From: Carettochelys insculpta
Lineage: Eukaryota > Chordata > Testudines > Carettochelyidae
NCBI RefSeq assembly: GCF_033958435.1
Contig: NC_134158.1
Span: 10,904,277-10,968,276, forward strand
DNA: 64,000 nucleotides
Reading direction: 5' to 3'
The notes beneath the pieces are model-generated. The model was not told the DNA's origin. It saw only the letters and a list, made by a program, of their open reading frames with translations, and did no database searches. The translations under genes and the position numbers were made by a program. Below are positions 3,801 to 40,250 of this stretch, in pieces (within the stretch, counting starts at the first letter, position 1; each line of letters begins with the position of its first letter).

Positions 3801-4923
3801 CGGCCCAGCCCCAGCCGGCTGCGGGGGTGTCCGGCCCCCATGCTCTGCGTGCCTGGCAGCCGGGCCCAGCCCCTGGGGCTGCTGTGGGGAGTCCTGTCTC
3901 CTCCCAGTAGCCACAGAGCAGCTTCCTTCACCCCAAACTGGCCCCACCCCCTGACCCCGACCCCCAGCCAGAGTCCCCACACTCCTGCGCCCCACCCCTC
4001 TGCGCCAGCCTGGAGCCTCCCACACTATGAACCCCTTAACCCCCCCCGTGAATGTTCTTGTGGGCACCAATAGGGCGGTGACATGTCGCACGGCATCTCC
4101 GTGTCGCACGGCATCTCCATGTCACACATCATCCCCATGTCGCACAGCCTCTCCGTGTCACACATCATCCCCGTGTCGCACGGCCTCTCCGTGTCACACA
4201 CCATCCCTGTGTCACACGGCCTCTCCGTGTCACACATCATCCCCGTGTCGCACGGCATCTCTGTGTCACACATCATCCCCGTGTCGCACGGCCTCTCCGT
4301 GTCACACATCATCCCCGTGTCGCATGGCCTTTCCGTGTCACACATCATCCCCGTGTCGCACAGCATCTCCGTGTCACACACCATCCCCGTGTCGCACGGC
4401 ATCTCCAGGGGGCCCGGGCCAGCTCCGTCCAACAGCTGCGTACTCACAGCGCTCTGGTGTCTCCTTCATCACTATGTTCGCCAGCCTCATGAAGTTGGCC
4501 AGGTAACGATGGAGCAGGGCCTCCAAGTCCTGCCACTGCTTGGGGGTCAGCCCCTCGCGGGCCCAGGGCTGCAGGAAGCGGATGGGGCAGGTGCTGCAGC
4601 TCATGGTGTGGGTCTCCAGGTCGCCCAGCAGGGCCAGCCCCTCCATGGTCATGGTGCTGGCGTTGTGGAAGACAATGGTCGGGAGAAGCCGCAGGGAGAC
4701 AGACCCTGGGGAGAGGAGGGGAGGCTGCAGGCGGGGCAGGACACAGGCAGCGAATCTCTGCTGGCATCCCCTGCCAACCACCACCGGGCCTCCCCTCCCC
4801 TCCGCGTACGCCCCCAGCCCCAGCATGGGGCTGCCCCCCCAGCACACATGGCAGCCACAGGGGTCCCCACTTACCCACCAGGGCCCCCCACGCCCAGGGC
4901 AGGAGCAGCAGCAGGAGCAGCAT
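806..4923 (-). CDS. CD1-like antigen-presenting molecule, gene A (partial: signal, alpha1, alpha2, alpha3)
   Basis: MHC class I-like, beta2-microglobulin-associated glycoprotein expected to present lipids. Exons on the minus strand: signal 4875-4923, alpha1 4448-4705, alpha2 3114-3395, alpha3 806-1102. All are joined by GT-AG introns in phase 1 and give 295 residues; TM and tail exons would lie left of position 1. The start gives a leader MLLLLLLLPWAWGALV. Alpha1 has an N-glycosylation site (NAS) and the LQPW..GLT..QWQDLE stretch typical of CD1 alpha1. Alpha2 has the GCELQP...GTCVGE cysteine pair. Alpha3 is Ig-type with CRVSGFYPRPIRVAW and YACRVEHSSL, closer to CD1 than to class I or II. Intron 1 is only 169 bp. 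Oddities are extra cysteines in alpha1 (SCSTCP) and alpha2 (GFCEA), and an alpha3 exon encoding the same protein as gene B although alpha1 and alpha2 differ strongly. Family call is firm; functionality is untested. Confidence 0.9.
1375..1615. repeat. Approximately 60-bp minisatellite in CD1-A intron 3
   Basis: About four tandem copies of a unit containing 'ctgcactgacaggcccctg' and 'agaggtggctgctctcagca'. The homologous array in CD1-B (13440-13945) has about eight or nine copies, so copy number differs between the two genes. Confidence 0.88.
1640..2550. other. CD1-A intron 3, no further feature recognised
   Basis: Moderately GC-rich intronic sequence between the 60-bp array and the TG-rich array. 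Unlike the flanking alpha3 block it has no obvious counterpart in CD1-B. No exon, RNA gene or mobile element was recognised. Confidence 0.5.
2555..3085. repeat. TG-rich (gtgtgagtgaatgagtgcg) tandem array
   Basis: About 530 bp of purine/pyrimidine-alternating TG-rich repeats such as 'gtgttggtgagcgtgcgtg' and 'tttgtgtgttagtgagtg', ending about 30 bp from the 3' edge of the alpha2 exon of CD1-A. Both a dinucleotide texture and a longer higher-order period of roughly 60-90 bp are visible. Confidence 0.9.
4083..4410. repeat. 36-bp (2 x 18) tandem array in CD1-A intron 2
   Basis: About nine copies of a roughly 36-bp unit made of two related 18-mers (cgcacggcatctccgtgt and cacacatcatccccgtgt). It lies between the alpha2 and alpha1 exons, about 40 bp from the alpha1 donor. 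It is open in several frames on both strands, but there is no coding support. Confidence 0.9.
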
Positions 4924-11068: not shown

Positions 11069-14000
11069 TCAGGTTTGAAGCTGTTGTGGCCACTCCCAGG
11101 CCTGCAAAGATGCAGGGACCTCAGGGCCGGCGGGGGTCCCCTTGTCCGCCCCGGCTGGGAGCAGAGGCCAGAGGGGGCCCGTCCGAGCGGCCACCGGCAC
11201 ACGGCCTTCTTGGACCACCAGCCATGGCCTGTCTGCTGGGCCACACGGCTCAGCCAGAGCCCTGCGACGTGGACTGGACTCCGGTACGGCCACTTCTCTG
11301 CCTCCCTGGGCAGCTGCCGCACCCCCCACCGCAGCCTCCCGCAGCCAGCGCTGGCACAACGCACGTAGAGACACCGACGCCGGAGCAGCGCGGCCAGACT
11401 CAGCCGCTCGCCGGCCCCAGCAGGAGCCTCCCTGCGCCCACTCGGCCCCAGAGCTGGTCGCAGTAAAACTCCAAGAGGGCCCCGGGGCCTTTCCCTGCCG
11501 CACGAAGGGGGCCTGGGGCTGCCCCAGGCCCCACCGCCGACAGTCACACCCCGCAGCCAAGGCCCCACCCCCAGCCCCAGCCCTGAGCTCTATGTCCCCA
11601 GGAGAGGGGCCGTGCCCCATGTCCGGGCTGGGGCCGGGGCTCTCCCCTGCGGCTCTGGACTGCCCCTGTCCGACGTCCCGGTAGCCCCTGCAAGCAGAGA
11701 GCAGCGGGGTCAGTTATGGGGGGCTGCAGCCCCACCCCCACCCCCGGCGGGGAGAGACTCACCTGCGTCTGCGCCACACGAGCACCGCGGCCAGGGCGGC
11801 TACGGCCAGAGCCCCCAGGGTGATGCCCACGGCCAGGCCGGGGCCCCAGCGCCTGCTGTGCTCTGCAACGCACGGGGGGGGGAAGGGACCCTGGGAACGG
11901 GCACCCGGCTCCCACCACCCCCTGCCAGTGCCACTCCCATCGCCCCCCAGCCCGGTCCACCCCCCGGCCCTGTCCTGTCCCCCTCTGCCCCTCCCTCCGG
12001 CCCATCCCCCATCGCCCCACCCACCCCCGCCCCCTCTGCCTCCCAGCGCCCCATCCCGGTGCCCCCACCCACCCCCGCCCCCTCTGCCTCCCTGAGCCCC
12101 ATCCCGGTGCCCCCACCCCCCCCACCCCCTCTGCCTCCCAGCGCCCCCTCCCGGTGCCCCCACCCACCCCACCCCCTCTGCCTCCCATCGCCCCATCCCG
12201 GTGCCCCCACCCCCGCCACCCCCTCTGCCTCCCAGCGCCCCCTCCCGGTGCCCCCACCCACCCCCGCCCCCTCTGCCTCCCTGAGCCCCATCCCGGTGCC
12301 CCCACCCACCCCCGCCCCCTCTGCCTCCCAGCGCCCCCTCCCGGTGCCCCCACCCACCCCCGCCCCCTCTGCCTCCCAGCGCCCCATCCTGGTGCCCCCA
12401 CCCACCCCCGCCCCCTCTGCCTGCCAGCGCCCCATCCCGGTGCCCCCACCCACCCCCGCCCCCTCTGCCTCCCTGTGCCCCCCTCCCAGTGCCCCCACCC
12501 ACCCCCGCCCCCTCTGCCTCCCAGCGCCCCATCCCGGTGCCCCCACCCACCCCCGCCCCCTCTGCCTCCCAGCGCCCCATCCGGGTGCCCCCACCCACCC
12601 CCGCCCCCTCTGCCTGCCAGCGCCCCCATCCCGGTGCCCCCACCCCCCCCACCCCCTCTGCCTCCCTGAGCCCCATCCCGGTGCCCCCACCCACCCCCGC
12701 CCCCTCTGCCTCCCTGTGCCCCCATCCCGGTGCCCCCACCCACCCCCGCCCCCTCTGCCTCCCAGCGCCCCCATCCCGGTGCCCCCACCCACCCCCGCCC
12801 CCTCTGCCTCCCAGCGCCCCCATCCCGGTGCTCTGCCCACCCCTGCCCAGGGCCATGCACCTACCCCAGGGGATCAGGAGGCCGCGGGGCCCCAGGCTGC
12901 TGTGCTCCACCCGGCAGGCGTAGCGGTGCCCGGCGCCCGGCCCCACGGCCAGGGAGCTGCGCAGCTGGTAGGTCTGGTCGGCGTTGGGCAGGATCCCGCT
13001 GGAGTCCAGCCGCCGGCCCGGCCCCACCTCCTCCCCGTCCTGCAGCCAGGCCACGCGGATGGGCCGGGGGTAGAACCCGCTGACCCGGCAAACCAGCAGG
13101 AACAGCACCAGGGGATCGGCGGGGGGAGGCGCTCGGGCGAACACCACGGCCACCGGCCGCTCTGAGACGGGGAGAGGGGCCGGCTCAGCCTGAGCCTCAG
13201 GGGCTCCCTAGCCCAGCCCAGCTCCACTGCCGGGGGCAGGCCTGGCCTCTGCTGCCCTGGCCGGAGCCCGGTTCTACCCCCTGGGCACCGACAGCCAGGG
13301 GATCCCCCTTCGCTCCCTGTGCTGTGCTGTATGGCTGGGAACGGCTGCCGCGCTCCACCCCAGCCACAGCTGCATTTGCACAGCTACCCTGGGGTCCTGT
13401 ACCCATCGTCCCCACCCCCAGAGGGGCTCAGCACCGGGGGAGGGATCCCTGCACTGACAGGCCCCTGCCCCACCCCAGAGGCGGCTGCTCTCAGCAGGGG
13501 GTGATGGATCCCTGCACTGACAGGCCCCTGCCCCACCCCAGAGGTGGCTGCTCTCAGCAGGGGGTGATGGATCCCTGCACTGACAGGCCCCCGTGTCCCA
13601 CCCCAGAGGTGGCTGCTCTCAGCAGGGGCGCAGGATCCCTGCACTGACAGGCCCCCGTGTCCCACCCCAGAGGTGGCTGCTCTCAGCAGGGGGTGATGGA
13701 TCCCTGCACTGACAGGCCCCTGCCCCACCCCAGAGGTGGCTGCTCTCAGCAGGGGGTGATGGATCCCTGCACTGACAGGCCCCTGCCCCACCCCAGAGGC
13801 GGCTGCTCTCAGCAGGGGGTGATGGATCCCTGCACTGACAGGCCCCTGCCCCACCCCAGAGGCAGCTGCTCTCAGCAGGGGTGCAGGATCCCTGCACTGA
13901 CAGGCCCCTGCCCCACCCCAGAGGCAGCTGCTCTCAGCACGCAGGGCGGGTGCCCAGCCTCACCTCGCCTCTGCAGGGACTCGTTTCCGCGCTGGGCGAA

Positions 14001-17000
14001 GGCCCGGAGCACATAGGCGCAGGTTATGCGGAAGAAGTACTGCAGCCGGGCGGCCGCGTCCCGATCCCAGCTGAGGAAGCCGCGGGCGTAGAGCGCCAGC
14101 TTGTCCTCCGAGTGCGCCACCCAGGCGCCGGCAGCCACGTCGAAGCTGACAATGGCCTGGCCGTTCCCCGCGGTGTCGTAGAACCCCCGGGCGGCGCCGC
14201 TCGGCTGCAGCTCGCAGCCGAGGGAGGCCTGGACGACAAAGGGGTCTGGGAGGGGAGGCAGGGGGTGAGGCTGGGCGGCAGGGGCTGCGGGGCGCTGGGC
14301 TGCTGGGGGTGGAAGGACCATGGGGGCCCTGGCTGGTGTTCCGGGTGTGGCGCAATGTCTCATTGAAGCTGCTGTAATGGGGCTCAGGGGTCCCCAAGCT
14401 CTGCCCCCACCCCCCCCGCAGGCAGGAGTGACTCTCGCCCAGCAGGTAGCACAGAAGGGTCAGTGCAGCCGACAGAGACGGTCATTGCAACCCGTCCTGG
14501 GGAGAGGAGCCCGAGGGGGGCCCCTCTGGGGTGCAGCTTCCCCCTCGCCAGGCTGGCGCCTTCCAGCTCCCTCTCCCCCAGCCTCCAACTGCCGCCCCCG
14601 ATTCCAACCCAGCTCGGCTCCTCCCTGCTCTGTGCTCAGGGCAGAGGTGTTACCTGCCAGCCCAGGGGTCGTCCTTAGCCCTGGCAGCTGCTCTGCCCCT
14701 CACACACACCCAGTGTGAGTCTCACACACGCACCCCCCACTCCATCACAGCTGATTGTAACAAGGGCTCTGGGCTCCTCCCGCACCCCGGACTGGCCGGG
14801 AAATGGTGGTGGGAGATTGTGGGGCGCAGGTGGGTGCCTCGGTCGTGGGGCTGCAGAGCTACAGACCCCGCCCCATGGCCTGTCACACAAGGGGTCAGGA
14901 TCAGGGCCACGCCAGGCCCAGGGAGTGCGGCTGGGGTGTTACACAGGCTCCTGTCACCCTCGGAGCTGTCCTGCCCCCAGCGAGGCTCCCACCACTGCAG
15001 TGAGCCTGTCAGTTCTCAGCACCCCGAGGCTGCCCCGGGGGCCTCCGCTGGCGCCGTACTCACAGCCCACGCCCTGCGGCTCAGCGATCTGCCTCGCGGT
15101 AGACATGAAGTCGGCCAGGGAGAAGTCGGCCACCCGCTCCAGGTCCTGCCACTGCCGGGGGCTCAGCCCCTGCTCCACCCAGGGCTGCAGGAAGCGGATG
15201 GCCCTGGTGCGGCTGTCCAAGGAGAAGGTCCGGAGGTCGCCCAGCAGGGCCGTGGCCTCTGTGGCTGCGGAGCTGGCGTTGGGGAACAGGGAGGTCAGCA
15301 GCAGCCGGAGGGCCAGGGGCTCTGTGGGGAGGGGAGGGGAGGCTGGGGGTCGGGGGAGCAAAGGGTCACATTCGGGTTCAGGTCTGGCTCTGGTCTCCCT
15401 GCACAGCCTCTGCTCCCACACGCCCAGCCAGGGGTGCTGCCCCCCGGCCCAGGCACTACGCCAAGCCCGACCCCCCCTTACCAGCCAGTGCCCCCCGGCC
15501 CAGGCACTACGCCAAGCCCGACCCCCCCTTACCAGCCAGTGCCCCCCACGCCCAGGCACTACGCCAAGCCCGACCCCCCCTTACCAGCCAGTGCCCCCCG
15601 GCCCAGGCACTACGCCAAGCCCGACCCCCCCATTACCAGCCAGTGCCCCCCACGCCCAGGCACTACGCCAAGCCCGACCCCCCCTTACCAGCCAGTGCCC
15701 CCCACGCCCAGGCACTACGCCAAGCCCGACCCCCCCTTACCAGCCAGTGCCCCCCGGCCCAGGCACTACACCAAGCCCGACCCCCCCTTACCAGCCAGTG
15801 CCCCCCGGCCCAGGCACTACGCCAAGCCCGACCCCCCCTTACCAGCCAGTGCCCCCCAGCCCAGGCACTACGCCAAGCCCGACCCCCCCTTACCAGCCAG
15901 TGCCCCCCAGCCCAGGCACTACGCCAAGCCCGATCCCACCTTACCAGCCAGTGCCCCCCAGCCCAGGCACTACGCCAAGCCCGACCCCCCCATTACCAGC
16001 CAGTGCCCCCCACGCCCAGGCACTACGCCAAGCCCGACCCCCCCTTACCAGCCAGTGCCCCCCACGCCCAGGCACTACGCCAAGCCCGACCCCCCCATTA
16101 CCAGCCAGTGCCCCCCACGCCCAGGCACTACGCCAAGCCCGACCCCCCCTTACCAGCCAGTGCCCCCCGGCCCAGGCACTACGCCAAGCCCGACCCCCCC
16201 TTACCAGCCAGTGCCCCCCACGCCCAGGCACTACGCCAAGCCCGACCCCCCCTTACCAGCCAGTGCCCCCCGGCCCAGGCACTACGCCAAGCCCGACCCC
16301 CCCTTACCAGCCAGTGCCCCCCGGCCCAGGCACTACGCCAAGCCCGACCCCCCCTTACCAGCCAGTGCCCCCCACGCCCAGGCACTACGCCAAGCCCGAC
16401 CCCCCCTTACCAGCCAGTGCCCCCCACGCCCAGGCACTACGCCAAGCCCGACCCCCCCCTTACCAGCCAGTGCCCCCCGGCCCAGGCACTACGCCAAGCC
16501 CGACCCCCCCTTACCAGCCAGTGCCCCCCGGCCCAGGCACTACGCCAAGCCCGACCCCCCCCTTACCAGCCAGTGCCCCCCACGCCCAGGCACTACGCCA
16601 AGCCCGACCCCCCCTTACCAGCCAGTGCCCCCCACGCCCAGGCACTACGCTAAGCCCGACCCCCCCATTACCAGCCAGTGCCCCCCACGCCCAGGCACTA
16701 CGCCAAGCCCGACCCCCCCTTACCAGCCAGTGCCCCCCACGCCCAGGCACTACGCCAAGCCCGACCCCCCCTTACCAGCCAGTGCCCCCCACGCCCAGGC
16801 ACTACGCCAAGCCCGACCCCCCCTTACCAGCCAGTGCCCCCCAGCCCAGGCACTACGCCAAGCCCGACCCCCCCTTACCAGCCAGTGCCCCCCACGCCCA
16901 GGCACTACGCCAAGCCCGACCCCCCCCTTACCAGCCAGTGCCCCCCAGCCCAGGCACTACGCCAAGCCCGACCCCCCCTTACCAGCCAGTGCCCCCCGGC

Positions 17001-20000
17001 CCAGGCACTACGCCAAGCCCGACCCCCCCCTTACCAGCCAGTGCCCCCCACGCCCAGGCACTACGCCAAGCCCGACCCCCCCATTACCAGCCAGTGCCCC
17101 CCACGCCCAGGCACTACGCCAAGCCCGACCCCCCCCTTACCAGCCAGTGCCCCCCACGCCCAGGCACTACGCCAAGCCCGACCCCCCCTTACCAGCCAGT
17201 GCCCCCCACGCCCAGGCACTACGCCAAGCCCGACCCCCCCTTACCAGCCAGTGCCCCCCACGCCCAGGCACTACGCCAAGCCCGACCCCCCCTTACCAGC
17301 CAGTGCCCCCCACGCCCAGGCACTACGCCAAGCCCGACCCCCCCTTACCAGCCAGTGCCCCCCACGCCCAGGCACTACGCCAAGCCCGACCCCCCCTTAC
17401 CAGCCAGTGCCCCCCACGCCCAGGCACTACGCCAAGCCCGACCCCCCCTTACCAGCCAGTGCCCCCCGGCCCAGGCACTACGCCAAGCCCGACCCCCCCT
17501 TACCAGCCAGTGCCCCCCACGCCCAGGCACTACGCCAAGCCCGACCCCCCCCTTACCAGCCAGTGCCCCCCAGCCCAGGCACTACGCCAAGCCCGACCCC
17601 CCCCTTACCAGCCAGTGCCCCCCACGCCCAGGCACTACGCCAAGCCCGACCCCCCCTTACCAGCCAGTGCCCCCCAGCCCAGGCACTACGCCAAGCCCGA
17701 CCCCCCCTTACCAGCCAGTGCCCCCCACGCCCAGGCACTACGCCAAGCCCGACCCCCCCTTACCAGCCAGTGCCCCCCACGCCCAGGCACTACGCCAAGC
17801 CCGACCCCCCCTTACCAGCCAGTGCCCCCCAGCCCAGGCACTACGCCAAGCCCGACCCCCCCTTACCAGCCAGTGCCCCCCACGCCCAGGCACTACGCCA
17901 AGCCCGACCCCCCCTTACCAGCCAGTGCCCCCCACGCCCAGGCACTACGCCAAGCCCGACCCCCCCTTACCAGCCAGTGCCCCCCACGCCCAGGCACTAC
18001 GCCAAGCCCGACCCCCCCTTACCAGCCAGTGCCCCCCGGCCCAGGCACTACGCCAAGCCCGACCCCCCCTTACCAGCCAGTGCCCCCCGGCCCAGGCACT
18101 ACGCCAAGCCCGACCCCCCCTTACCAGCCAGTGCCCCCCGGCCCAGGCACTACGCCAAGCCCGACCCCCCCCTTACCAGCCAGTGCCCCCCACGCCCAGG
18201 CACTACGCCAAGCCCGACCCCCCCTTACCAGCCAGTGCCCCCCAGCCCAGGCACTACGCCAAGCCCGACCCCCCCTTACCAGCCAGTGCCCCCCAGCCCA
18301 GGCACTACGCCAAGCCCGACCCCCCCTTACCAGCCAGTGCCCCCCAGCCCAGGCACTACGCCAAGCCCGACCCCCCCTTACCAGCCAGTGCCCCCCACGC
18401 CCAGGCACTACGCCAAGCCCGACCCCCCTTACCAGCCAGTGCCCCCCACGCCCAGGCACTACGCCAAGCCCGACCCCCCCCTTACCAGCCAGTGCCCCCC
18501 ACGCCCAGGCACTACGCCAAGCCCGACCCCCCCCTTACCAGCCAGTGCCCCCCACGCCCAGGCACTACGCCAAGCCCGACCCCCCCTTACCAGCCAGTGC
18601 CCCCCAGCCCAGGCACTACGCCAAGCCCGACCCCCCCCTTACCAGCCAGTGCCCCCCAGCCCAGGCACTACGCCAAGCCCGACCCCCCCTTACCAGCCAG
18701 TGCCCCCCAGCCCAGGCACTACGCCAAGCCCGACCCCCCCTTACCAGCCAGTGCCCCCCAGCCCAGGCACTACGCCAAGCCCGACCCCCCCCTTACCAGC
18801 CAGTGCCCCCCACGCCCAGGCACTACGCCAAGCCCGACCCCCCCCTTACCAGCCAGTGCCCCCCACGCCCAGGCACTACGCCAAGCCCGACCCCCCCCTT
18901 ACCAGCCAGTGCCCCCCACGCCCAGGCACTACGCCAAGCCCGACCCCCCCTTACCAGCCAGTGCCCCCCACGCCCAGGCACTACGCCAAGCCCGACCCCA
19001 CCTTACCAGCCAGTGCCCCCCACGCCCAGGCACTACGCCAAGCCCGACCCCCCCTTACCAGCCAGTGCCCCCCACGCCCATGCACTACGCCAAGCCCGAC
19101 CCCCCCTTACCAGCCAGTGCCCCCCACGCCCAGGCACTACGCCAAGCCCGACCCCCCCTTACCAGCCAGTGCCCCCCACGCCCAGGCACTACGCCAAGCC
19201 CGACCCCCCCCTTACCAGCCAGTGCCCCCCACGCCCAGGCACTACGCCAAGCCCGACCCCCCCTTACCAGCCAGTGCCCCCCGCGCCCAGGCACTACGCC
19301 AAGCCCGACCCCCCCTTACCAGCCAGTGCCCCCCAGCCCAGGCACTACGCCAAGCCCGACCCCACCTTACCAGCCAGTGCCCCCCACGCCCAGGCACTAC
19401 GCCAAGCCCGACCCCCCCTTACCAGCCAGTGCCCCCCAGCCCAGGCACTACGCCAAGCCCGACCCCCCCATTACCAGCCAGTGCCCCCCACGCCCAGGCA
19501 CTACGCCAAGCCCGACCCCCCCTTACCAGCCAGTGCCCCCCACGCCCAGGCACTACGCCAAGCCCGACCCCCCCTTACCAGCCAGTGCCCCCCACGCCCA
19601 GGCACTACGCCAAGCCCGACCCCCCCTTACCAGCCAGTGCCCCCCAGCCCAGGCACTACGCCAAGCCCGACCCCCCCCTTACCAGCCAGTGCCCCCCACG
19701 CCCAGGCACTACGCCAAGCCCGACCCCCCCCTTACCAGCCAGTGCCCCCCACGCCCAGGCACTACGCCAAGCCCGACCCCCCCCTTACCAGCCAGTGCCC
19801 CCCACGCCCAGGCACTACGCCAAGCCCGACCCCCCCTTACCAGCCAGTGCCCCCCACGCCCAGGCACTACGCCAAGCCCGACCCCACCTTACCAGCCAGT
19901 GCCCCCCACGCCCAGGCACTACGCCAAGCCCGACCCCCCCCTTACCAGCCAGTGCCCCCCACGCCCATGCACTACGCCAAGCCCGACCCCCCCTTACCAG

Positions 20001-23000
20001 CCAGTGCCCCCCACGCCCAGGCACTACGCCAAGCCCGACCCCCCCTTACCAGCCAGTGCCCCCCACGCCCAGGCACTACGCCAAGCCCGACCCCCCCCTT
20101 ACCAGCCAGTGCCCCCCACGCCCAGGCACTACGCCAAGCCCGACCCCCCCTTACCAGCCAGTGCCCCCCACGCCCAGGCACTACGCCAAGCCCGACCCCC
20201 CCTTACCAGCCAGTGCCCCCCAGCCCAGGCACTACGCCAAGCCCGACCCCCCCTTACCAGCCAGTGCCCCCCACGCCCAGGCACTACGCCAAGCCCGACC
20301 CCCCCTTACCAGCCAGTGCCCCCCAGCCCAGGCACTACGCCAAGCCCGACCCCCCATTACCAGCCAGTGCCCCCCACGCCCAGGCACTACGCCAAGCCCG
20401 ACCCCCCCTTACCAGCCAGTGCCCCCCACGCCCAGGCACTACGCCAAGCCCGACCCCCCCTTACCAGCCAGTGCCCCCCAGCCCAGGCACTACGCCAAGC
20501 CCGACCCCCCCTTACCAGCCAGTGCCCCCCAGCCCAGGCACTACGCCAAGCCCGACCCCCCCTTACCAGCCAGTGCCCCCCACGCCCAGGCACTACGCCA
20601 AGCCCGACCCCCCCTTACCAGCCAGTGCCCCCCAGCCCAGGCACTACGCCAAGCCCGACCCCCCCTTACCAGCCAGTGCCCCCCAGCCCAGGCACTACGC
20701 CAAGCCCGACCCCCCCTTACCAGCCAGTGCCCCCCAGCCCAGGCACTACGCCAAGCCCGACCCCCCCATTACCAGCCAGTGCCCCCCACGCCCAGGCACT
20801 ACGCCAAGCCCGACCCCCCCTTACCAGCCAGTGCCCCCCACGCCCAGGCACTACGCCAAGCCCGACCCCCCCTTACCAGCCAGTGCCTCCCAGCCCAGGC
20901 ACTACGCCAAGCCCGACCCCCCCATTACCAGCCAGTGCCCCCCACGCCCAGGCACTACGCCAAGCCCGACCCCCCCATTACCAGCCAGTGCCCCCCACGC
21001 CCAGGCACTACGCCAAGCCCGACCCCCCCCTTACCAGCCAGTGCCCCCCACGCCCAGGCACTACGCCAAGCCCGACCCCCCCCTTACCAGCCAGTGCCCC
21101 CCACGCCCAGGCACTACGCCAAGCCCGACCCCCCCTTACCAGCCAGTGCCCCCCACGCCCAGGCACTACGCCAAGCCCGACCCCCCCTTACCAGCCAGTG
21201 CCCCCCACGCCCAGGCACTACGCCAAGCCCGACCCCCCCTTACCAGCCAGTGCCCCCCACGCCCAGGCACTACGCCAAGCCCGACCCCCCCTTACCAGCC
21301 AGTGCCCCCCCCGGCCCAGGCACTACGCCAAGCCCGACCCCCCCTTACCAGCCAGTGCCCCCCCCGGCCCAGGCACTACGCCAAGCCCGACCCCCCCCTT
21401 ACCAGCCAGTGCCCCCCACGCCCAGGCACTACGCCAAGCCCGACCCCCCCTTACCAGCCAGTGCCCCCCACGCCCAGGCACTACGCCAAGCCCGACCCCC
21501 CCTTACCAGCCAGTGCCCCCCAGCCCAGGCACTACGCCAAGCCCGACCCCCCCATTACCAGCCAGTGCCCCCCACGCCCAGGCACTACGCCAAGCCCGAC
21601 CCCCCTTACCAGCCAGTGCCCCCCACGCCCAGGCACTACGCCAAGCCCGACCCCCCCTTACCAGCCAGTGCCCCCCACGCCCAGGCACTACGCCAAGCCC
21701 GACCCCCCCCTTACCAGCCAGTGCCCCCCACGCCCAGGCACTACGCCAAGCCCGACCCCCCCCTTACCAGCCAGTGCCCCCCACGCCCAGGCACTACGCC
21801 AAGCCCGACCCCCCCTTACCAGCCAGTGCCCCCCACGCCCAGGCACTACGCCAAGCCCGACCCCCCCCTTACCAGCCAGTGCCCCCCACGCCCAGGCACT
21901 ACGCCAAGCCCGACCCCCCCTTACCAGCCAGTGCCCCCCACGCCCAGGCACTACGCCAAGCCCGACCCCCCCTTACCAGCCAGTGCCCCCCACGCCCAGG
22001 CACTACGCCAAGCCCGACCCCACCTTACCAGCCAGTGCCCCCCACGCCCAGGCACTACGCCAAGCCCGACCCCACCTTACCAGCCAGTGCCCCCCACGCC
22101 CAGGCACTACGCCAAGCACGACCCCCCCTTACCAGCCAGTGCCCCCCACGCCCAGGCACTACGCCAAGCCCGACCCCCCTTACCAGCCAGTGCCCCCCAC
22201 GCCCAGGCACTACGCCAAGCCCGACCCCCCCTTACCAGCCAGTGCCCCCCACGCCCAGGCACTACGCCAAGCCCGACCCCCCCTTACCAGCCAGTGCCCC
22301 CCACGCCCAGGCACTACGCCAAGCCCGACCCCCCGCTTACCAGCCAGTGCCCCCCACGCCCAGGCACTACGCCAAGCCCGACCCCCCCTTACCAGCCAGT
22401 GCCCCCCACGCCCAGGCACTACGCCAAGCCCGACCCCCCCTTACCAGCCAGTGCCCCCCACGCCCAGGCACTACGCCAAGCCCGACCCCCCCTTACCAGC
22501 CAGTGCCCCCCACGCCCAGGCACTACGCCAAGCCCGACCCCCCGCTTACCAGCCAGTGCCCCCCACGCCCAGGCACTACGCCAAGCCCGACCCCCCCCTT
22601 ACCAGCCAGTGCCCCCCACGCCCAGGCACTACGCCAAGCCCGACCCCCCCTTACCAGCCAGTGCCCCCCACGCCCAGGCACTACGCCAAGCCCGACCCCC
22701 CCCTTACCAGCCAGTGCCCCCCACGCCCAGGCACTACGCCAAGCCCGACCCCCCCTTACCAGCCAGTGCCCCCCACGCCCAGGCACTACGCCAAGCCCGA
22801 CCCCCCCCTTACCAGCCAGTGCCCCCCACGCCCAGGCACTACGCCAAGCCCGACCCCCCCCTTACCAGCCAGTGCCCCCCACGCCCAGGCACTACGCCAA
22901 GCCCGACCCCCCTTACCAGCCAGTGCCCCCCACGCCCAGGCACTACGCCAAGCCCGACCCCCCTTACCAGCCAGTGCCCCCCACGCCCAGGCACTACGCC

Positions 23001-23909
23001 AAGCCCGACCCCCCCTTACCAGCCAGTGCCCCCCACGCCCAGGCACTACGCCAAGCCCGACCCCCCCCTTACCAGCCAGTGCCCCCCACGCCCAGGCACT
23101 ACGCCAAGCCCGACCCCCCGCTTACCAGCCAGTGCCCCCCACGCCCAGGCACTACGCCAAGCCCGACCCCCCCCTTACCAGCCAGTGCCCCCCACGCCCA
23201 GGCACTACGCCAAGCCCGACCCCCCCTTACCAGCCAGTGCCCCCCACGCCCAGGCACTACGCCAAGCCCGACCCCCCCCTTACCAGCCAGTGCCCCCCAC
23301 GCCCAGGCACTACGCCAAGCCCGACCCCACCTTACCAGCCAGTGCCCCCCACGCCCAGGCACTACGCCAAGCCCGACCCCCCCCTTACCAGCCAGTGCCC
23401 CCCACGCCCAGGCACTACGCCAAGCCCGACCCCCCCCTTACCAGCCAGTGCCCCCCACGCCCAGGCACTACGCCAAGCCCGACCCCCCCCTTACCAGCCA
23501 GTGCCCCCCACGCCCAGGCACTACGCCAAGCCCGACCCCCCCCTTACCAGCCAGTGCCCCCCACGCCCAGGCACTACGCCAAGCCCGACCCCCCCTTACC
23601 AGCCAGTGCCCCCCACGCCCAGGCACTACGCCAAGCCCGACCTCCCCCTTACCAGCCAGTGCCCCCCACGCCCAGGCACTACGCCAAGCCCGACCCCCCC
23701 CTTACCAGCCAGTGCCCCCCACGCCCAGGCACTACGCCAAGCCCGACCTCCCCCTTACCAGCCAGTGCCCCCCACGCCCAGGCACTACGCCAAGCCCGAC
23801 CCCCCCCTTACCAGCCAGTGCCCCCCACGCCCAGGCACTACGCCAAGCCCGACCCCCCCTTACCAGCCAGTGCCCCCCACGCCCAGGGCAGCAGCAGACA
23901 GAGCAGCAT
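11069..23909 (-). CDS. CD1-like antigen-presenting molecule, gene B
   Basis: Beta2m-associated class I-like molecule expected to present lipids at the cell surface and in endosomes. Minus-strand exons: signal 23864-23909 (MLLCLLLPWAWGALAG), alpha1 15064-15321, alpha2 13964-14245, alpha3 12865-13161, TM 11763-11862, tail exon starting at 11687. All junctions are GT-AG and in phase through the TM. Alpha1 carries NAS and LQPWVEQGLS..QWQDLE; alpha2 has the GCELQP...ITCAYV cysteine pair; alpha3 has VCRVSGFYPRPI and YACRVEHSSL. The TM helix (GLAVGITLGALAVAALAAVL) ends in a WRRRR stop-transfer, followed by GYRDV, a YxxPhi endosomal sorting motif. The tail end is unresolved: the exon stays open to a stop at 11069, so a further splice is likely. 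Intron 1 is 8.5 kb against 169 bp in gene A, because of a minisatellite. Confidence 0.9.
12010..12840. repeat. 48-bp minisatellite in CD1-B intron 4
   Basis: About 17 copies of the same C-rich unit as at 1-782, between the alpha3 and TM exons. Flanks next to alpha3 are nearly identical in the two genes, so the array belongs to the block shared by genes A and B. Confidence 0.93.
13440..13945. repeat. Approximately 62-bp minisatellite in CD1-B intron 3
   Basis: Eight or nine copies of the unit with 'ggatccctgcactgacagg' and 'agaggtggctgctctcagca', reaching to within about 20 bp of the alpha2 exon. It is homologous to 1375-1615 in gene A. Confidence 0.92.
14373..14749 (-). mobile_element. Solo LTR, copy 2 (CD1-B intron 2)
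   Basis: Degenerate member of the TGTGATGG...CCATCACA family (left end tgtaatgg), without the AATAAA-containing segment. Flanks gctgc and gctga match at four of five positions, consistent with a 5-bp target duplication. It lies between the alpha1 and alpha2 exons of CD1-B. Confidence 0.65.
15433..23863. repeat. Giant ~52-bp minisatellite derived from the CD1-B signal-exon edge
   Basis: About 8.4 kb and roughly 160 tandem copies of a 51-54-bp unit fill intron 1 of CD1-B. Read on the coding (minus) strand, each unit contains CTGGGCGTGGGGGGCACTGG followed by CTG|GTAAGG. That is the last ~25 nt of the signal exon plus its splice donor (compare 23858-23890). Units vary in C-run length (5-8), in the 'cttaccag'/'cattaccag' junction and in cacgccc/cagccc/cggccc at one site. 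The cacgccc form, identical to the exon, predominates next to the exon (21-23.9 kb); cggccc and cagccc forms are commoner at the far end. The 3497-aa and similar plus-strand frames across it are artefacts of a stop-free repeat. Confidence 0.95.
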
Positions 23910-24030: not shown

Positions 24031-24056
24031 CGGCTGCCAGCCCAGCCAATCAGGCC
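24031..24056 (-). promoter_or_regulatory. Conserved CD1 promoter block with CCAAT/Y-box (gene B)
   Basis: CCAATCAG at 24046-24053 (CTGATTGG on the coding strand) lies about 137 bp upstream of the CD1-B start codon, inside a 24-bp block identical to that of gene A. The conservation between otherwise diverged upstream regions suggests a shared core promoter. Confidence 0.6.
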
Positions 24057-31184: not shown

Positions 31185-31821
31185 GTGCTCCTCACGTGGG
31201 GGAAACTGAGGCACCGGGCGGGGCTAGCCCAGCTCCCTGGTGCAGGCGCCTCTCCCCGAGCTCTGGCAAGGCTGTTTATGTGGCTCCCCCGCTCTGCCCC
31301 CCAGCTTGCACGAGCCGGCCCCGCTAGGCTGCCTGCAGACATGGGGATGGGGCTGGGGTGTCCCAGTGGGAGGGACGACCCCGCCCTCGGCTGGTCCCTA
31401 CGGGGGAGCCCCTGAAATACTTGCGGGTCTCTAGGGCTCAGGAGCTGCTGTGAGGGGTCTTCCCTCCACGGGTGTGCAGGGAGCTTGGGGGTGAGGACTG
31501 GGGCCCAGCAGGGAAGGTGCCCAGGGCCCCCTCCCTTTGGTGGGTCGGGGGCCAGGGAGCCGGAACCAGCTCTGCCCATTGGCCCCCACACTCCTGCAGC
31601 TGGGGAAAGAACCCAGGAGTCCTGGCTGCAGCCCCTCCCCCTCCCAGCCAGGTGTTTGCCCCCGGGGGGGGGTGCCAACCTCTGCTCTGCGTTCACTTTC
31701 CCGCTGGCGGGCGGCGCCAGTGCCGGGTGTGGGGCAGCCGCTCCCCGTGGGTGTCTCCGCCTGCGCCACCGGGAGCAAAGTCCCAGGGCAGCGCCCAGAG
31801 AGCAGGGCCCCGAGGGGCCTG
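31185..31821 (+). promoter_or_regulatory. Class I 5' flanking region with ISRE-like motif
   Basis: The ~640 bp upstream of the class I start. TTCACTTTCCC at 31692-31702 resembles the interferon-stimulated response element of class I promoters, 120 bp upstream of the ATG. An ATTGG (inverted CCAAT) lies at 31578-31582. 'acccaggagtcctggctgca' near 31612 belongs to the interspersed 66-bp family also found in PSMB9 and TAP1 introns. No enhancer A site was recognised. Confidence 0.45.
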
Positions 31822-34800
31822 ATGCGGCTGACGAAGGGGGCGACCACGGGGCTCCGCATGGCTGTGCCCGTCCCCCTCCCCCTGCTCCTGCTGGGGGTCT
31901 TCGCCGGCTGCTGCGGTGAGTATCGGGGGAGGGGCAGGATCGGGCCCCTTCGGGGCAGGGTGACCCATGGTGGGGCTGGGCTGGCTGAGGGGCTTTGAAG
32001 CTGGAATCCAGACCCACCCCCCCCACTGGGCCCGATTCTGCCCTCAGCTGCCTGGTGAGGATCAGGCTGGGACGAGGGGACGTCGAGCTAGAGGGAGCCC
32101 AGAATCGGGCCCTGGCTGGACTGGCACCCCCTGTCCGCCACAGCCCGGTGCGTCTCCTGGGGCAGGCGGGGGGCGGGGAGCCCTGCTGGGCGTTAATGGG
32201 GGAGGAGGCGGAGGGCAGAGTCAGCCATTCAGGGTCAGCTCTGCCCCACGGCACTGGGCAGGGTCCGCCCTTGGTCTGCACCCCACAAAAGCCAGGCTGG
32301 GGCCCCGGTCACACCCAGTGCTGCACAGACCCCTGACCCCAGAGAGACTGAGCCCCATAAGCCCTGCAGTATGGGGTGGAGGGCTGGGGTGGACCCAAGG
32401 GGCGGCTGGCTGGTGGTGGGGGTGTCTCTCCCCTGCAGCGTTCATGGGGTCCTCGCCCCCCTGTGGCAGGGGCTGGGCGGAGGGGGGTGCTGGCTGATTT
32501 GGTGTCTCCCTTGGGGCTGGGGGTGGGCCTGGGGGGTGGCTGGCTGGTGGGGGGGTCTCTCCCCTGCAGTGTTGGGGGGGGTGGGCGTGGAGGGGTGGCT
32601 GATGGGGGGGGTCTCCCCCGGGGGGTGGCTGGCTAATGGGGGGGGTCACCCTGATGGGGGGGTGGTTGGCTGATGGGGGCATCTCCCCTGGACGGTGGGC
32701 ACAGGGGTGGCTGGCTGACAGGGGGTCTCCCCTGGGCACGGGGGTGGCTGGCTGACGGGTGGTTTCCCCCGGGCACAGGGGTGGCTGGCTGACGGGGGTC
32801 TCCCCGGGCATGGGGGTACAGGGGCACCTGACGGGGTCTCCCCCCCAGGCTCGCACTCGCTGCGCTACTTCTACACGGCGGTGTCGGAGCCGGGCCCGGG
32901 GCTGCCCCGGTTCTCTGTGGCGGGGTACCTGGACGAGCAGCTCTTCCTGCAGTACGACAGTGGGGGGCAGACGGCCCAGCCCCGCGCCCCCTGGATCCGC
33001 AAAGAGGACCCTGAGTACTGGCAGCGCCAGACCTGGATCGCCCGGGGCTGGCAGGAGGCCTTCGGCGGCAACGTGCGCATCGCCATGGAGCGCCACAACC
33101 AGAGTGCGGGTGAGCGGGGGGGGACCCCGGCCCCGGGCACAGCGGGGTCACAGCGCTAGGCTGAGCAGCCGGGGGGGGCCTGGCTGGGCGGGGGGACCCC
33201 ACCCCCATGGGAACCCCAGCCCTGGGCACAGCAGGGTCACAGGTCTCAGCTGAGCAGCTGGGGGGGGCCTGGCTGGGCAGGGGGACCCCACACCCATGGG
33301 GACCCCGGCCCCGGGACCCTGACCCCTAACCCCAGCACTGACTCCTAATCCTGGCACTGAGTTGTGACCCCAGCCCTGACCCCTAACCCCAGTGCTCAGC
33401 TGTGACCCCGGCATGGCTGTAACCCCAACCTTGACCCCTAACCCCGGCACTGAGCTGTGACCCCAGCACGGCCCTAACCCCGACCCTGCCCTGGCCCACT
33501 GAGACCCACCCCCCCGGAGTCCCATGCTACAGCGCCACAGGCAGCTGGCCTGGCGGTACCTGTGCCAGACAGGCCACGGGGGGTGGGGGTGGGGTCAGGG
33601 ACACGGCCCAGCCAGGGCGAGGGGGTGGCCGCCAAGCCAGGTCTAATGAGTGGTGCTGGAGGGCTCAGGCGCCCCTGTTCCATCGGCGCCCCAGGCCTGC
33701 ACACCCTCCGGTACAGTGCAGTGCAGTGCAGTGCAGTACAGTGCAGTACGCCTATGCCTGTGCGCGGGGGGCGGCTGCGGTGGCTGGGCTGTGGGGGGCC
33801 GTGGGGGGCCATGGGGGGGCCGTGGCTCAGGCGCCCGTTCCCCAGGCCTGCACACCTTCCAGTACGCCTACGGCTGCGCGCGGGGGGCGGCTGCGGTGGC
33901 TGGGCTGTGGGGGGCTGTGGGGGGGCCATGGGGGGCCGTGGCTCAGGCGCCCGTTCCCCAGGCCTGCACACCTTCCAGTACGCCTACGGCTGCGCGCGGG
34001 GGGCGGCTGCGGCGGCTGGGCTGTGGGGGGCCATGGGGGGCCGTGGCTCAGGCGCCCGTTCCCCAGGCCTGCACACCTTCCAGTACGCCTACGGCTGCGC
34101 GCGGGGGGCGGACGGCAGCGCCGAGGGCTTCCGGCGGTACGGCTACGACGGGCGCGACTTCCTCTCCTACGACACCCGCACCCACACCTGGGTGGCCCCC
34201 AGCCCAGCCGCCGCCCTCACCAGGGCCAAGATGGAGAGCGACTCCCACCTGCGCCGGCAGCAGAGCGACTACCTGGAGCACAAGTGTCTCCAGTGGCTGC
34301 ACAAGTACCTGGGCTACAGGCAGGACGAGCCGCCGAGGACAGGTGTGGGGTGGGGCCCCGGGGGGGGCACCTGAGTGCCGAGGGGAGGTGTGGGGCGGGG
34401 CCCTGGGGGGAGCACCTCACTGCTGAGGACAGGTGTGGGGCAGGGCCCTGGGGGGGCACCTGAGTGCTGAGGGGAGGTGTGGGGCGGGGCCCTGGGGGGA
34501 GCACCTCACTGCTGAGGACAGGTGTGGGGCGGGGCCCAGTGGGGCAGGCAGCCCACTGCCAAGGGGAGGTGCGGGGCGGGGCCCCGGGGGGATGGGACAC
34601 CCCACTGCAGGGTCACCCCCGGCCTGTGGGAGACACTCCCCTGCAGGTGTGGGGCAGGGCCCCGGGGGGGGGTCACCCCACTGGAAAGACCCCCCTGCAG
34701 AGGAGAGGTGCAGGAGTGGGGGTGGGGGGCCGGGATAGCCCCCTGCAAAGTCACCCCCTCCTGGAGAGTCACCCCCGGCCACCGACTCCATTGTCCCAGG

Positions 34801-37800
34801 CCCGGCTCCCGACGTTAGCGCCCCAGAGATCTCCTGAGCCGTCTGGGGGGCCCGGCTGTGCCATGAACCCCCAGCCGGGGCCCATCCCCACGGCCTCTGG
34901 GCGCCTGGGGGGCTGTGCTCTGGTCTCTCGCTCTCCGAGCCCTGACCCCGCAGCTCCCCTCTGCCCCCAGAGCGCCCCGCGGTGCGGGTCACCAGCAGAG
35001 ACACCCCCGGCGGCCCCTCCACCCTCTGGTGCCGGGCCCACGGCTTCTACCCCCGGCACATCACCCTGAGCTGGCTGCCCAAGGGGGACACCGGGCAAGG
35101 GGGGGTCCTGCCCAACGGGGACGGGACCTACTACGCCTGGGCCACGGTGCAGGTCGACCCCCAGGAGAGAGGCCGGTACCGGTGCCGTGTGGAGCATGAC
35201 AGCCTGGAGCAGCCGCTGGAGGCCGCGTGGGGTAAGGGGCTGGAACTGGGGCAGGGCCGGGGGTCGCGGGCGGCTGGTCCCAGGGTGGAGGAAGGGGCTT
35301 GGGCCCTGGCGCGGCCGGGAGTTCCCTGGCGTGGTGGGGTCCTTAACGCAGCCTCGGGGCGTCTCTCTCCTGCTCCCTTGCAGAGCCCCCGGCCTCCGCT
35401 GCCCTGGTGGGGACCCTGGCCACGCTGGGCACCGTCCTGCTGGCTGCCGTCGCTGGGGCCGTGCTGTGGTGGAGACGGCGTGCAGGTAACGGGGGCCCCC
35501 GATGCTGATTCCCCCTGAGCTCGGGTCTGCTCGGTGCTGAGACCGGGGCCCAGAGCCGGCCCCTGCCCCAGGCCGCTCACTGCAACCTGCCCTCTCTCCG
35601 CAGGGAGACCTGACTACGCGAAAGCTCAGGGTGAGTGGAGCCCCTCGGGCGTGGGGGGCACGGCCCAGCCTGGGGGCCTCCCTGGGGCCGAGTACCCCCA
35701 GTGCCTCCGATTGTGGGGTACAGCCCCCGGCTCTGAGCCGGGCCTGGCAGGGCCCAGCGCTGGCTGTGCCTGGGGCCGGTCCGGGGGTGCTGTTCCCAGG
35801 CCGGGTGGGCAGGGGGTGAGGGCGGCTCGGTTCCTAGGGGTGTCCGGCTGGTTTCGGAGACACTAACCCCCTTCTCCCCCCAACAGCCAGTGACGGGAGC
35901 TCCAGCGCCACACTGCCAGGTGAGGGGTTAATGCAGCCGCCCGTCAGCCCCTGCTCTGCCCCAGAGCCCCTGCGGGGACGGGACGCTGGGTGGTGGTGGG
36001 GGCTCTCCTGGGGGGGGGCTGTGCCGGGGGCTGGCAATTCACCCCACACGCTCCAGGGGTCACCTGTGAGCGGAGCCGGTACCTGGGCCCTGTTCTCCCT
36101 ACACCAGGGTCTGGACCCCCTGGCAGAGCTGCCGCCTCGGCCCCCTCACGCAGCCAGGGGGTCAGAGCCCCCAGCCGTGGCCCGACTCCCAGGGCGCCCC
36201 CGGGCAAGGGCAGGTCTGTCGGGCCGGGTGGGTGGAACCCCTCCCTGGGGGGTGGGACCCCCGGAGCACACGGACCCCCCCGGGGCTCAGAGACGGTGAC
36301 CCCCTCCCCTTCTCCCCCCACAGGCAGCGACAGCGACAAAGGATCCAGCTCTACGCTGCCAGGTGAGGGGTTAATGGAGCCGCCCCTCAGCCCCTGCCCT
36401 GCCCCAGAGCCCCTGCGGGGACAGGATGCCGGGTGGTGGGAGGGGCTCTCCTGGGGGGGTTGTGATGGGGTTCGGGGTCCCCAGGCTCTGCCCCTGTCCC
36501 CAGGCAGGAGAGTCTCTCACTCAGCAGGAGAACAGCGGGTTTATGAGCCGACAGGACACAGCGTCGTACAGAGGAGTCAGTACAGCCGGCAGAGACAGCC
36601 AGTCCCATCCATGCTGGGGAGAGGAGGCCCCGAGGGGCCCCCAGAGCTGGGGCCTGGCCCCCTCCTTTGTCTCTCTCCCACCCAGCCCAGACTAACTGCT
36701 CCCAACTCCCAGTTCCAGTTCAAACCCCTCCGGTACCTGGGCCCTGTTCTCCCCACGCGAGGGTCTGGACACCCCCCGGCAGAGCTGGGCGTGAGGGTCC
36801 CTTTGGGGACCTCCCACCTGGGCCCCCTCACCCAGCCTCGGGATCTGTCGGGCTGGGTGGGTGGAACCCCTCCCCGGGGGGTGGGACCCCCGGGGGGTGG
36901 GACCCCCGGAGCACATGGACCCCCTGGTCTCAGAGACGCTGACCCCCTCCCCTTCTCCCCCCACAGGCAGCAACAAAGGATCCAGCGAGAGTAAGTGCGG
37001 GGGGGCGACCAGCCCTGGGGCGTGGCTGTGGTCACAGAGACCTCAGCAGTGAGACCCCTGCTCCCCAGGCCCTGCCCTGGGAATGCTGCAGCTCCCCCCA
37101 GGGCAGGGGGTCCCAGGGCGCAGGGTTGTGGGTCCTGGGGCGCAGGGCTGGGGCTCCCTTCCGAGGGGCGCAGGGTTGTGGATCCCAGGAGCGCAGGGCT
37201 GGGGCTCCCTTCCGAGGGGCGCAGGGTTGTGGGTCCTGGGGCGCAGGGCCGGGGCTCCCTTCCGAGGGCGGCTCCAGGCAGTGGGACACTAGGTGTGTGG
37301 GGGGGGCAGGGTCTGTGTGGTATTTTGAGGGCTGTACAAACTGGGGGGGGCTGCATAGGACCCTCTAACCCCCCATATCTCAGCCTCCCCCTCCCCATAG
37401 CTGGGCCAGGACCCTGAGATCCCAGCCCCTCCCGCCCCATGGAGCCCTGAGCCCTGTAGCCCTGGGGGGGGTCATGGGGATTATCCCCCCGGAGCTGGTT
37501 CTGCCTGGCCCCACCCCGGCCCCCTCCGACTGGTCCCTGCCTGGGCTGGGCTGGGCCGTTTCTGGGCCTCCCGGCTGTTCCGCTCGGCCTGGTCTGAGCC
37601 CGGCTGCGGGTGGGGGTCGGCCCGGCTGCGGGTGGGGGTCGGCCCCGGCCCGGCACTAACCCCCCTGTCCCCGCAGGCAGCGACCCCGGCTACGACAGCG
37701 TCTCCCAAGGTAAGTGCGCCGTGTGCACTCAGGGCGGGGGGTCCCCGGGCCATGGACCCCGAGTCCCCCAGGCGCTGCCCCCCTGGCAGGCCGCCCTGGG

Positions 37801-38148
37801 GCAGTCTGAGCACCCAGGGGCCGGGGGTTCAGTGAACCAGCCGGGGGGCTCCCTCCTGTGCCCCCGACCCTGCCCCAGGCACCGCTGGGAGCCACCCTGT
37901 GGGATGGGGCGTCTCCCCTGGCTGCGGGAGGGGCTGGAGAAAGGCCTGGGGTGGGGGGAGCCCCCTCCGGTGTCGGCCCCGATCCCTGCGCACGTGCGAG
38001 GCCCTGACCCACCTGACTCCCCCCTTCCTCTCCCGCAGAGTCGGAGACCGGGCAGCTGCCGGCAGAGGAGGCAGAGACCGGCCACAACCCAGCAGCTGAG
38101 CAGCTCCTGCCGCAGCCCCCTGGGGACACCCGCCCGGAGGCCGTCTAG
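31822..38148 (+). CDS. MHC class I heavy chain, probably non-classical
   Basis: Beta2m-associated membrane glycoprotein presenting peptides to T cells or NK receptors. Exons: signal 31822-31915, alpha1 32849-33109, alpha2 34067-34342, alpha3 34971-35231, TM 35384-35485, tail 35604-35630, 35887-35919, 36324-36362, 36967-36990, 37677-37709, 38039-38148. They sum to 1260 nt (419 aa), all phase 1, no stops. A second in-frame ATG lies at 31858. Alpha1 starts GSHSLRY (Tyr7) and has PEYW (Tyr59) and NQS glycosylation after Arg84. Alpha2 has the YGC/HKC cysteine pair, Tyr159, Trp167 and Tyr171. Alpha3 has CRAHGFYPR and YRCRVEH. TM is followed by WWRRR. Oddities: the usual T143/K146/W147 cluster is not conserved, the alpha3 CD8-binding loop is about five residues short, and there are six tail exons. 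Partial copies of the alpha2 acceptor precede exon 3. Class I identity is certain; classical or not is inference. Confidence 0.93.
32380..32840. repeat. G-rich imperfect repeats in class I intron 1
   Basis: Tandem 30-50-bp variants of 'ggggtggctggctgacgggg' fill the second half of intron 1 up to the alpha1 acceptor. Confidence 0.75.
33684..34066. repeat. Partial tandem copies of the class I exon 3 acceptor
   Basis: Three partial copies precede the true alpha2 exon, at 33691, about 33846 and about 33962, with a period near 116 bp. Each contains the acceptor CCCCAG and the first ~14 codons of the exon (GLHTFQYAYGCARGA), then diverges into G-rich intron sequence. The first has an internal (cagtg)n stutter near 33716-33748. 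The fourth copy (34067) is the complete exon. Confidence 0.93.
35887..36430 (+). repeat. Duplicated tail-exon segment (exons 7 and 8)
   Basis: Exon 7 with its 3' intron and exon 8 with its 3' intron are tandem duplicates. Both encode a GSSS(A/S)TLP ending and share 'gtgaggggttaatg' and 'cagagcccctgcggggac' downstream, about 440 bp apart. Exons 9 and 10 are more remote relatives (GSNKGSSE, SDPGYDSVSQ). Confidence 0.85.
36461..36730 (-). mobile_element. Truncated solo LTR, copy 3 (class I intron 8)
   Basis: Left end TGTGATGG present and right part missing. At 36731 the sequence returns to intron sequence resembling 36078-36130. It lies between tail exons 8 and 9 of the class I gene; its 'gggtttatgag' segment has lost the AATAAA. 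Confidence 0.75.
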
Positions 38149-38305
38149 TCCGGAGGCCCTGCTGGGAGCTCGGCGGCTCCTGGCCCGAGTCCGCCCCGTC
38201 CCTCTGCCGCAGCCCCCTGGGGACACCCGCCCGGAGGCCCTGCTGGGAGCTCGGCGGCTCCTGGCCCGAGTCCGCCCCGTCCCTCTGCCGCAGCCCCTGG
38301 CCTGG
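38108..38305 (+). repeat. Tandem duplication spanning the class I stop codon
   Basis: 'ccgcagccccctggggacac' and about 95 bp downstream occur twice (from 38110 and 38208). The first copy has an extra 16 bp (gtctagtccggaggcc) that contains the TAG stop. The second copy lacks it and lies in the 3' UTR. Confidence 0.85.
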
Positions 38306-38856: not shown

Positions 38857-39282
38857 TGTGATGGGGTCTGGGGGTCCCCAAGCACAGCATCCCCCCCCCA
38901 CAGGCAGGAGTGACTCTCACCCAGCAGGTAGCACAGGAGGTTGATGAGGCGACAGAGCCCAGCTCAGCACAGAGGGGTCAGTGCAGCCGGCAGAGACAGT
39001 CATTGCAACCCGTCCTGGGGAGAGGAGCCCGAGGGGGGCCCCTCTGGGGTGCAGCTTCCCCCCTCGCCAGGCTGGCTCCTTCCAGCTCCCTCTCCCCCCA
39101 GCTTCCAACTGCCGCCCCCGATTGCAACCCAGCTCGGCTCCTCCCTGCTCTGTGCTCAGGGCAGAGGTGTTACCTGCCAGCCCAGGTACAGCCCAGGGGT
39201 CATCCTTAGCCCTGGGAGCTGCTCTGCCCGTCACACACACCCAGCCTGAGTCTCACACGTGCACCCCCCTCGCTCCATCACA
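38857..39282 (-). mobile_element. Solo LTR, copy 4
   Basis: TGTGATGG...CCATCACA element of about 425 bp, flanked by acacc and ccacc (four of five match). It is closest to copy 2 internally (no tttatta segment; shared 'gctgctctgcc'). Confidence 0.75.
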
Positions 39283-39848: not shown

Positions 39849-39895
<47 letters not shown>

Positions 39896-40245: not shown

Positions 40246-40250
40246 CGGGG

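Follow-up and report, generated by a model that had tools for sequence, protein, structure and literature searches.

The first intron of CD1-B, a gene of the lipid-antigen-presenting CD1 family in the turtle Carettochelys insculpta, was found to be filled by a minisatellite whose 52-bp units join the edge of the signal exon (exon 1) to a splice donor, giving 162 donors in a row. It was considered probable that the array had been born by mispairing at the exon edge, that the first donor is the one used, and that the other 161 act as decoys lowering the yield of productive mRNA. The window analysed was a stretch of 64,000 nucleotides (NCBI RefSeq assembly GCF_033958435.1, contig NC_134158.1, positions 10,904,277 to 10,968,276 of the forward strand) that sits on C22, and positions given below are those of the window unless another piece is named.

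Tandem Repeats Finder returned a single array in the intron, spanning 8.45 kb (15438-23887) with 162.3 copies of a 52-bp period and 97% matches, which agrees with the definition of a minisatellite as many head-to-tail units of about 10-100 bp. It was the longest array with units of this size in 24 sources; the second longest listed, 4,295 bp in L013, was built from 46/94-bp units. Splitting the array as read on its coding (minus) strand gave 161 complete units, which fell into 24 types and were 51-54 nt long. Donors of the form GGCTG/GTAA, where the slash marks the exon-intron boundary, were located with the pattern GGCTGGTAA and numbered 162, namely the real one and 161 copies; their spacing of 51-54 nt meant that none had been skipped. 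The nine nucleotides at the boundary were CTG/GTAAGG in 148 of the 162 donors, CTG/GTAATG in 11 and CTG/GTAAGC in 3. An earlier description of this DNA, made from the letters alone and referred to here as the sequence-only reading, had reported such an array in CD1-B and about 160 decoy donors after the real one, and both statements agreed with these counts.

The last 24 nt of exon 1 were compared with every unit, and the best ungapped match was 24/24 in 115 of the 161 units, 23 in 3, 20 in 2, 19 in 26 and 18 in 15, whereas 2,000 random 52-mers from the remaining window scored 12.1 on average and 19 at most. The 41 units scoring 18-19 mostly carried a one-base gap within the exon-derived stretch, which was penalised by the ungapped count. 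Hence the units aligned to the exon edge better than random sequence, and the proposed origin in the signal-exon edge stood; the exon-derived stretch, given earlier as about 25 nt, was shortened to 24 nt, as none of the units matched over 25.

It was proposed that a 17-nt motif at the exon edge mispaired with an imperfect copy 52 nt downstream, by which the 52 nt between them, donor included, would have been duplicated, and that the array would later have grown by unequal exchange or slippage. Once the array was collapsed, the two motifs, reading CCTGGGC(GT/C)GGGGGGCA at the exon edge and in the intron, started exactly 52 nt apart. The collapsed intron measured 160 bp to the downstream AG and 139 bp to the chosen AG, compared with 169 bp in CD1-A, a value already given by the sequence-only reading and confirmed here, and 173 bp in CD1-C, a third gene at lower coordinates in L011. 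Intron 1 was free of any array in both sister genes. Over its first 80 nt, collapsed CD1-B resembled CD1-C to a degree that was reached by 0 of 500 shuffles. CD1-A keeps the intron motif in a single copy: the aligned stretch begins 35 nt from the donor, compared with 36 nt in CD1-B, and GGGGGGCAGC is present in both. Judged by sequence comparison, the exon edge predates the array, because it reads PWAWGALA in 8 of 9 and PWAWRALA in 1 of 9 CD1 proteins of other turtles.

The order of unit types along the array was consistent with this origin. All of the first 44 units from the exon side carried the exon version (GTGGGGGG), while only 2 of the 16 intron-version units stood before the 109th unit and 14 were found in the last 53 of 161. 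The median unit positions were 68 for the exon version (n=117), 98 for the T version (n=27) and 140.5 for the intron version (n=16), and the exon and intron versions differed in position (Mann-Whitney p = 2e-5). The exon version was nevertheless the commonest in all six blocks (27, 24, 18, 17 and 17 of 27, then 14 of 26). Thus the exon form does dominate near the exon, as had been claimed, and intron-like units lie preferentially towards the opposite end, but the exon form does not give way there. Growth from the exon side, suggested earlier from the same gradient, was not supported; growth from that side alone was unneeded, since two parental motifs account for the gradient. Birth between an exon and an intron motif, each boundary keeping its own version, predicts such a gradient and appears to fit it better than one-sided growth. 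Neighbouring units were 97.8% alike as compared with 97.3% over all pairs, and the longest repeated run of mixed unit types was 5, a length reached in 92 of 100 shuffles. The slightly greater likeness of neighbours, together with the lack of long block copies, favours numerous small events over a loop in the assembly. A higher-order repeat structure was weak at most, with lag z values of 2.15 (lag 1), 2.95 (11), 2.72 (31) and 2.43 (34) among 79 lags.

Further, each of the 162 donors was joined in turn to exon 2. The frame remained open with donor 1 only, and all 161 decoys resulted in the identical truncated frame of 23 codons, MLLCLLLPWAWGALAGKGGSGLA followed by a stop, so that the use of any decoy would truncate the protein in the same way. 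With donor 1, a single reading frame was open across exons 1-5 and for the initial 200 nt of exon 6, and the splice sites were canonical (GT donors, AG acceptors). The cap-binding complex aids the binding of U1 at the cap-proximal donor, according to the available text of PMC4889658, which cites Lewis 1996. As the complex favours the cap-proximal donor and the first exon, which ends at donor 1, is short, productive mRNA was predicted to arise from donor 1. Additional donors can provoke intron retention, as a cryptic donor did in VWF, where a single one can suffice to disturb splicing (available part of PMC8706089), and a decoy exon of OGT is described as a splicing decoy that promotes intron retention (available part of PMC12017769). 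Because added donors cause intron retention in other genes, some loss of mRNA was predicted for CD1-B. The 161 donor copies would reduce the productive yield by acting as decoys, and the decoy-spliced or intron-retaining RNA would be lost by nonsense-mediated decay.

Several observations weigh against this explanation. The similarity of the two seed motifs appears modest, since their alignment score of 24 was matched by 18 of 500 dinucleotide shuffles. Within the initial 80 nt of intron 1, the likeness was reached by 11 of 500 shuffles for collapsed CD1-B and CD1-A and by 35 of 500 for CD1-A and CD1-C. In CD1-C, the aligned stretch begins 51 nt from the donor as compared with 38 nt in CD1-B, and the first half of the motif was not seen. 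RNA folding did not distinguish donor 1, the unpaired score of which was 0.367 versus 0.364-0.607 for the ten decoys examined. Cryptic donors placed elsewhere in the same VWF exon gave no retention, as stated in the part of PMC8706089 available. The frame of CD1-B was followed 200 nt into exon 6, and no stop codon was located within it. No near-identical protein was present among the best 120 of 275 database matches with lengths of 0.55-1.75 of the query, and CD1-B may lack annotation or have low expression. Finally, we infer the effects of the array on CD1-B splicing, and predict the donor use, from the genomic sequence.

The strongest competing explanation, considered possible although clearly less probable, was that the array is inert: donor 1, being first and near the cap, would win almost always, the copies would be spliced out without effect, and the whole would have arisen neutrally, as a by-product of GC-rich surroundings prone to repeats. 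Indeed, the repeat content was 42% for the window as a whole and 12-74% for nine neighbouring 10-kb pieces, of which one was half N, compared with 0.4-24% of nine spaced C22 pieces and 0-2% of five macrochromosome pieces. A preference of arrays for splice junctions was rejected, as 3 of 36 junctions of CD1-A, CD1-B, CD1-C and the neighbouring class I gene lay inside arrays against a background of 27% (1,997 positions of these genes), and another local copy existed for 4 of 36 junctions versus 22% of positions; the junctions were placed by hand, the exon-2 donors of the three CD1 genes being a few nucleotides off in this count, and intron 1 of CD1-B was excluded from the background. As junctions were not enriched for arrays, selection for the array is unproven, and no signs of selection keeping it were found. 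Exon-edge arrays apparently recur here as a by-product of the repeat-prone region. The coding strand of the array also holds no AATAAA or ATTAAA. Inertness is harder to reconcile with the same nine nucleotides being kept by 148 of the 162 donors and with the ability of one cryptic donor to disturb splicing elsewhere (available text of PMC8706089). A mildly harmful array and an inert by-product were regarded as the two likeliest outcomes. A more elaborate role was judged unlikely, namely that of a length-tuned brake, in which the 161 stop-bearing donors near the promoter would soak up U1 and shunt part of the transcripts to dead-end splicing or nuclear retention, with a copy number that varies between individuals and sets the amount of CD1-B protein.

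An action at the level of DNA or chromatin was considered improbable. It would require the G-rich transcript following the promoter to form R-loops or quadruplexes, by which transcription would be slowed or recombination and gene conversion among the CD1 genes promoted. The coding strand has a GC skew of 0.52 across the 8.45 kb, and the array holds 463 CpG; both are compatible with such an action, as are the alpha-3 exons of CD1-A and CD1-B, whose identity at 297/297 positions, versus 69-70% for alpha 1 and alpha 2, points to gene conversion within the cluster. However, CpG observed/expected was just 0.56, the identical stretch surrounds exon 4 and does not adjoin the array, and quadruplex motifs were absent at maximum loop lengths of 7 and 12, while 161 appeared when loops of up to 15 were allowed. 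It was thought least likely of all that the array had been expanded or collapsed in the assembly, the true locus being much shorter or longer. The copy number was read from one assembly, but this assembly was very probably made from HiFi reads with hifiasm and has a contig N50 of 126 Mb (available part of PMC10960847); the unit order contains no long block copies and the window contains no N.

Other candidates were also rejected. RNA structure hiding the decoys and exposing donor 1 was discarded since the unpaired scores overlap (exon-1 fold z = -2.44 in CD1-B, 0.38 in CD1-A and 1.35 in CD1-C). An inverted repeat across exon 1 was dropped, the shuffles reaching it being 42 of 1,000 in CD1-B, 76 in CD1-A and 540 in CD1-C. 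A guarding role of U1 against early polyadenylation within the array was rejected for lack of the AATAAA and ATTAAA signals there.

The closest known system is a human one. The units of the IFI6 minisatellite are 12 bp long and in frame. The minisatellite of this gene (6-16, G1P3) gives several splice donors (Turri et al. 1995, via the available parts of PMC4526556 and PMC2572611), two downstream units being used as donors (PMC4526556, same part). As in IFI6, the units in CD1-B carry several donors within one gene, each taken from the adjacent exon edge (162 donors, with the 24-nt edge fully matched in 115 of 161 units). Unlike those of IFI6, the CD1-B units are 52 bp long, out of frame and stop-bearing, number 162 over 8.45 kb, and are known here from sequence alone; all 161 decoys truncate the protein, where alternative donors of the IFI6 kind would extend it in frame. 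Internal tandem repeats at exon-intron boundaries of human segmental-duplication genes, as far as the available text of PMC2812944 describes them, are likewise boundary minisatellite expansions with recent paralogues differing in copy number, but have a mean of four 30-bp units and 160 bp in total, compared with 162 units of 52 bp in CD1-B. With the decoys of OGT and VWF, as these are presented in the available parts of PMC12017769 and PMC8706089, the array shares non-productive splice sites at a single intron, to which the spliceosome would be drawn; those decoys are one or few and were experimentally tested, whereas CD1-B has 161 donor copies with a predicted decoy role.

No such array at a CD1 gene was named in the titles or abstract openings of the searched, mostly non-subscription literature, in which CD1 and minisatellite were never combined as a query. 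The novelty is less than the sequence-only reading suggested, as the multi-donor minisatellite of IFI6 is on record. What is new here is the scale (162 copies, 8.45 kb) and the breaking of the frame by every decoy. The locus represents an extreme natural experiment in 5' splice-site choice: behind one real donor stand 161 near copies whose flanks are the same, so that the right donor could be told apart mainly by its place, first and close to the cap, and by transcription order. The exon and the intron version, from which the repeat descends, are both preserved, as is the array-free state in sister genes, which makes the birth of a splice-site minisatellite readable from sequence. Should copy number affect CD1 output, an immune locus of this endangered turtle would be variable.

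The features of the CD1-B gene and of its array are collected in the table.

Table. Positions in the window of the CD1-B exons, the intron 1 array and related elements.
Feature	Position	Strand	Remark
52-bp minisatellite	15438..23887	-	unit of 24 nt exon-1 edge and 28 nt intron start (GTAAGG first); 162.3 copies
Exon copy of seed motif, CCTGGGCGTGGGGGGCA	23871..23887	-	
Intron copy of seed motif, CCTGGGCCGGGGGGCAG, far end of array	15437..15453	-	
GT of first (real) intron 1 donor	23862..23863	-	first of 162; sole donor leaving the frame open
CD1-B exon 1, coding part (MLLCLLLPWAWGALA and one base)	23864..23909	-	from translation and junctions
CD1-B exon 2 (alpha 1)	15064..15342	-	acceptor picked by likeness to Pelodiscus P0005
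CD1-B exon 3 (alpha 2)	13964..14245	-	
CD1-B exon 4 (alpha 3)	12865..13161	-	
CD1-B exon 5 (transmembrane)	11763..11862	-	
CD1-B exon 6	from 11687 down	-	first 200 nt in open frame
CCAAT-box-like element upstream of CD1-B exon 1, CCAATCAG (+ strand reading)	24046..24053	-	read in the sequence; CD1-B and CD1-C aligned
CD1-A exon 1, paralogue without array (intron 1 of 169 bp)	4876..4923	-	

The acceptor of exon 2 was chosen because it yields ALAASPPLPTEPLALRLLLTSLFPNAS, which is close to ALAASPPLPTESLALRLLLTSLFPNAS of the Pelodiscus protein; intron 1 measured 8,521 bp to this acceptor and 8,542 bp to the second AG. The gene comprises a signal exon, MHC-I-like alpha 1-alpha 2 domains, a C1-set alpha 3 domain and a transmembrane exon, as is characteristic of CD1, and the Pfam domains PF16497 (8e-26) and C1-set PF07654 (3e-15) were above the cut-off. 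The best eight database matches of the CD1-B protein, queried with slightly different exon joins, were turtle proteins of 66-68% identity, six of them CD1d-like by name and two unnamed. Two Carettochelys CD1 entries (P0040 and P0069) were among the matches, and P0040 fits CD1-A. The CCAATCAG element, which resembles a CCAAT box, was also found upstream of exon 1 in CD1-A and CD1-C.

The likeness of CD1-A (806-1365) and CD1-B (12865-13424) continues beyond the identical alpha-3 exons over the next 263 nt of intron 3 (99.2%) and extends into the minisatellites of introns 3 and 4. The alpha-3 exon of CD1-C (L011 935-1455) was 99.7% identical to both. Taken from these alignments, the alpha-3 pattern looks like gene conversion. 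CD1-C may be a pseudogene, because its exon 2 (L011 2432-2694) matches CD1-A in two different frames. The exons of a fourth CD1-like gene were observed at L009 8747-9974 and L010 2580-2813, at lower coordinates than CD1-C.

The neighbouring genes were located by a Pfam frame scan, which covered both strands of 37801-46802 and 49501-63002, the + strand only of 31801-37802 and the - strand only of 46501-49502. An MHC class I gene lies on the + strand, with alpha 1 from about 32.85 kb and the C1-set domain to about 35.2 kb; a proteasome subunit lies on the - strand (best stretch at about 48.57-48.69 kb), and the + strand carries from about 57 kb an ABC transporter that is probably TAP.

Two of the three junctions found inside arrays belonged to exon 3 of the class I gene, one array copying the acceptor and one the donor, so that this alpha-2 exon is flanked on both sides by edge arrays. 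A 116-bp repeat (33744-34111, 3.3 copies) holds the acceptor and the start of the exon; CCCCAG/GCCTGCACACC occurs at 33689, 33840 and 33956 and at the real site, 34061, which gives three decoy acceptors upstream. The 3' edge of the exon and its donor (GAGGACAG/GTGTGGGG) lie within a 45-bp repeat (34332-34591, 5.8 copies), and between 34342 and 34646 a loose donor pattern has seven occurrences, of which the first is the real donor. A 101-bp repeat (48087-48371) beside an exon of the proteasome subunit, a case outside the 36 junctions counted, carries GGGGGGCAG/GTGAGGCTGGG at 48089, 48190, 48291 and 48355, the last of which is apparently the real donor. A 61-bp repeat (49135-50161, 16.8 copies) has units with the acceptor-like stretch CTGCCCCCAG on the + strand, the adjacent proteasome exons being on the opposite strand, and this stretch is probably due to chance.

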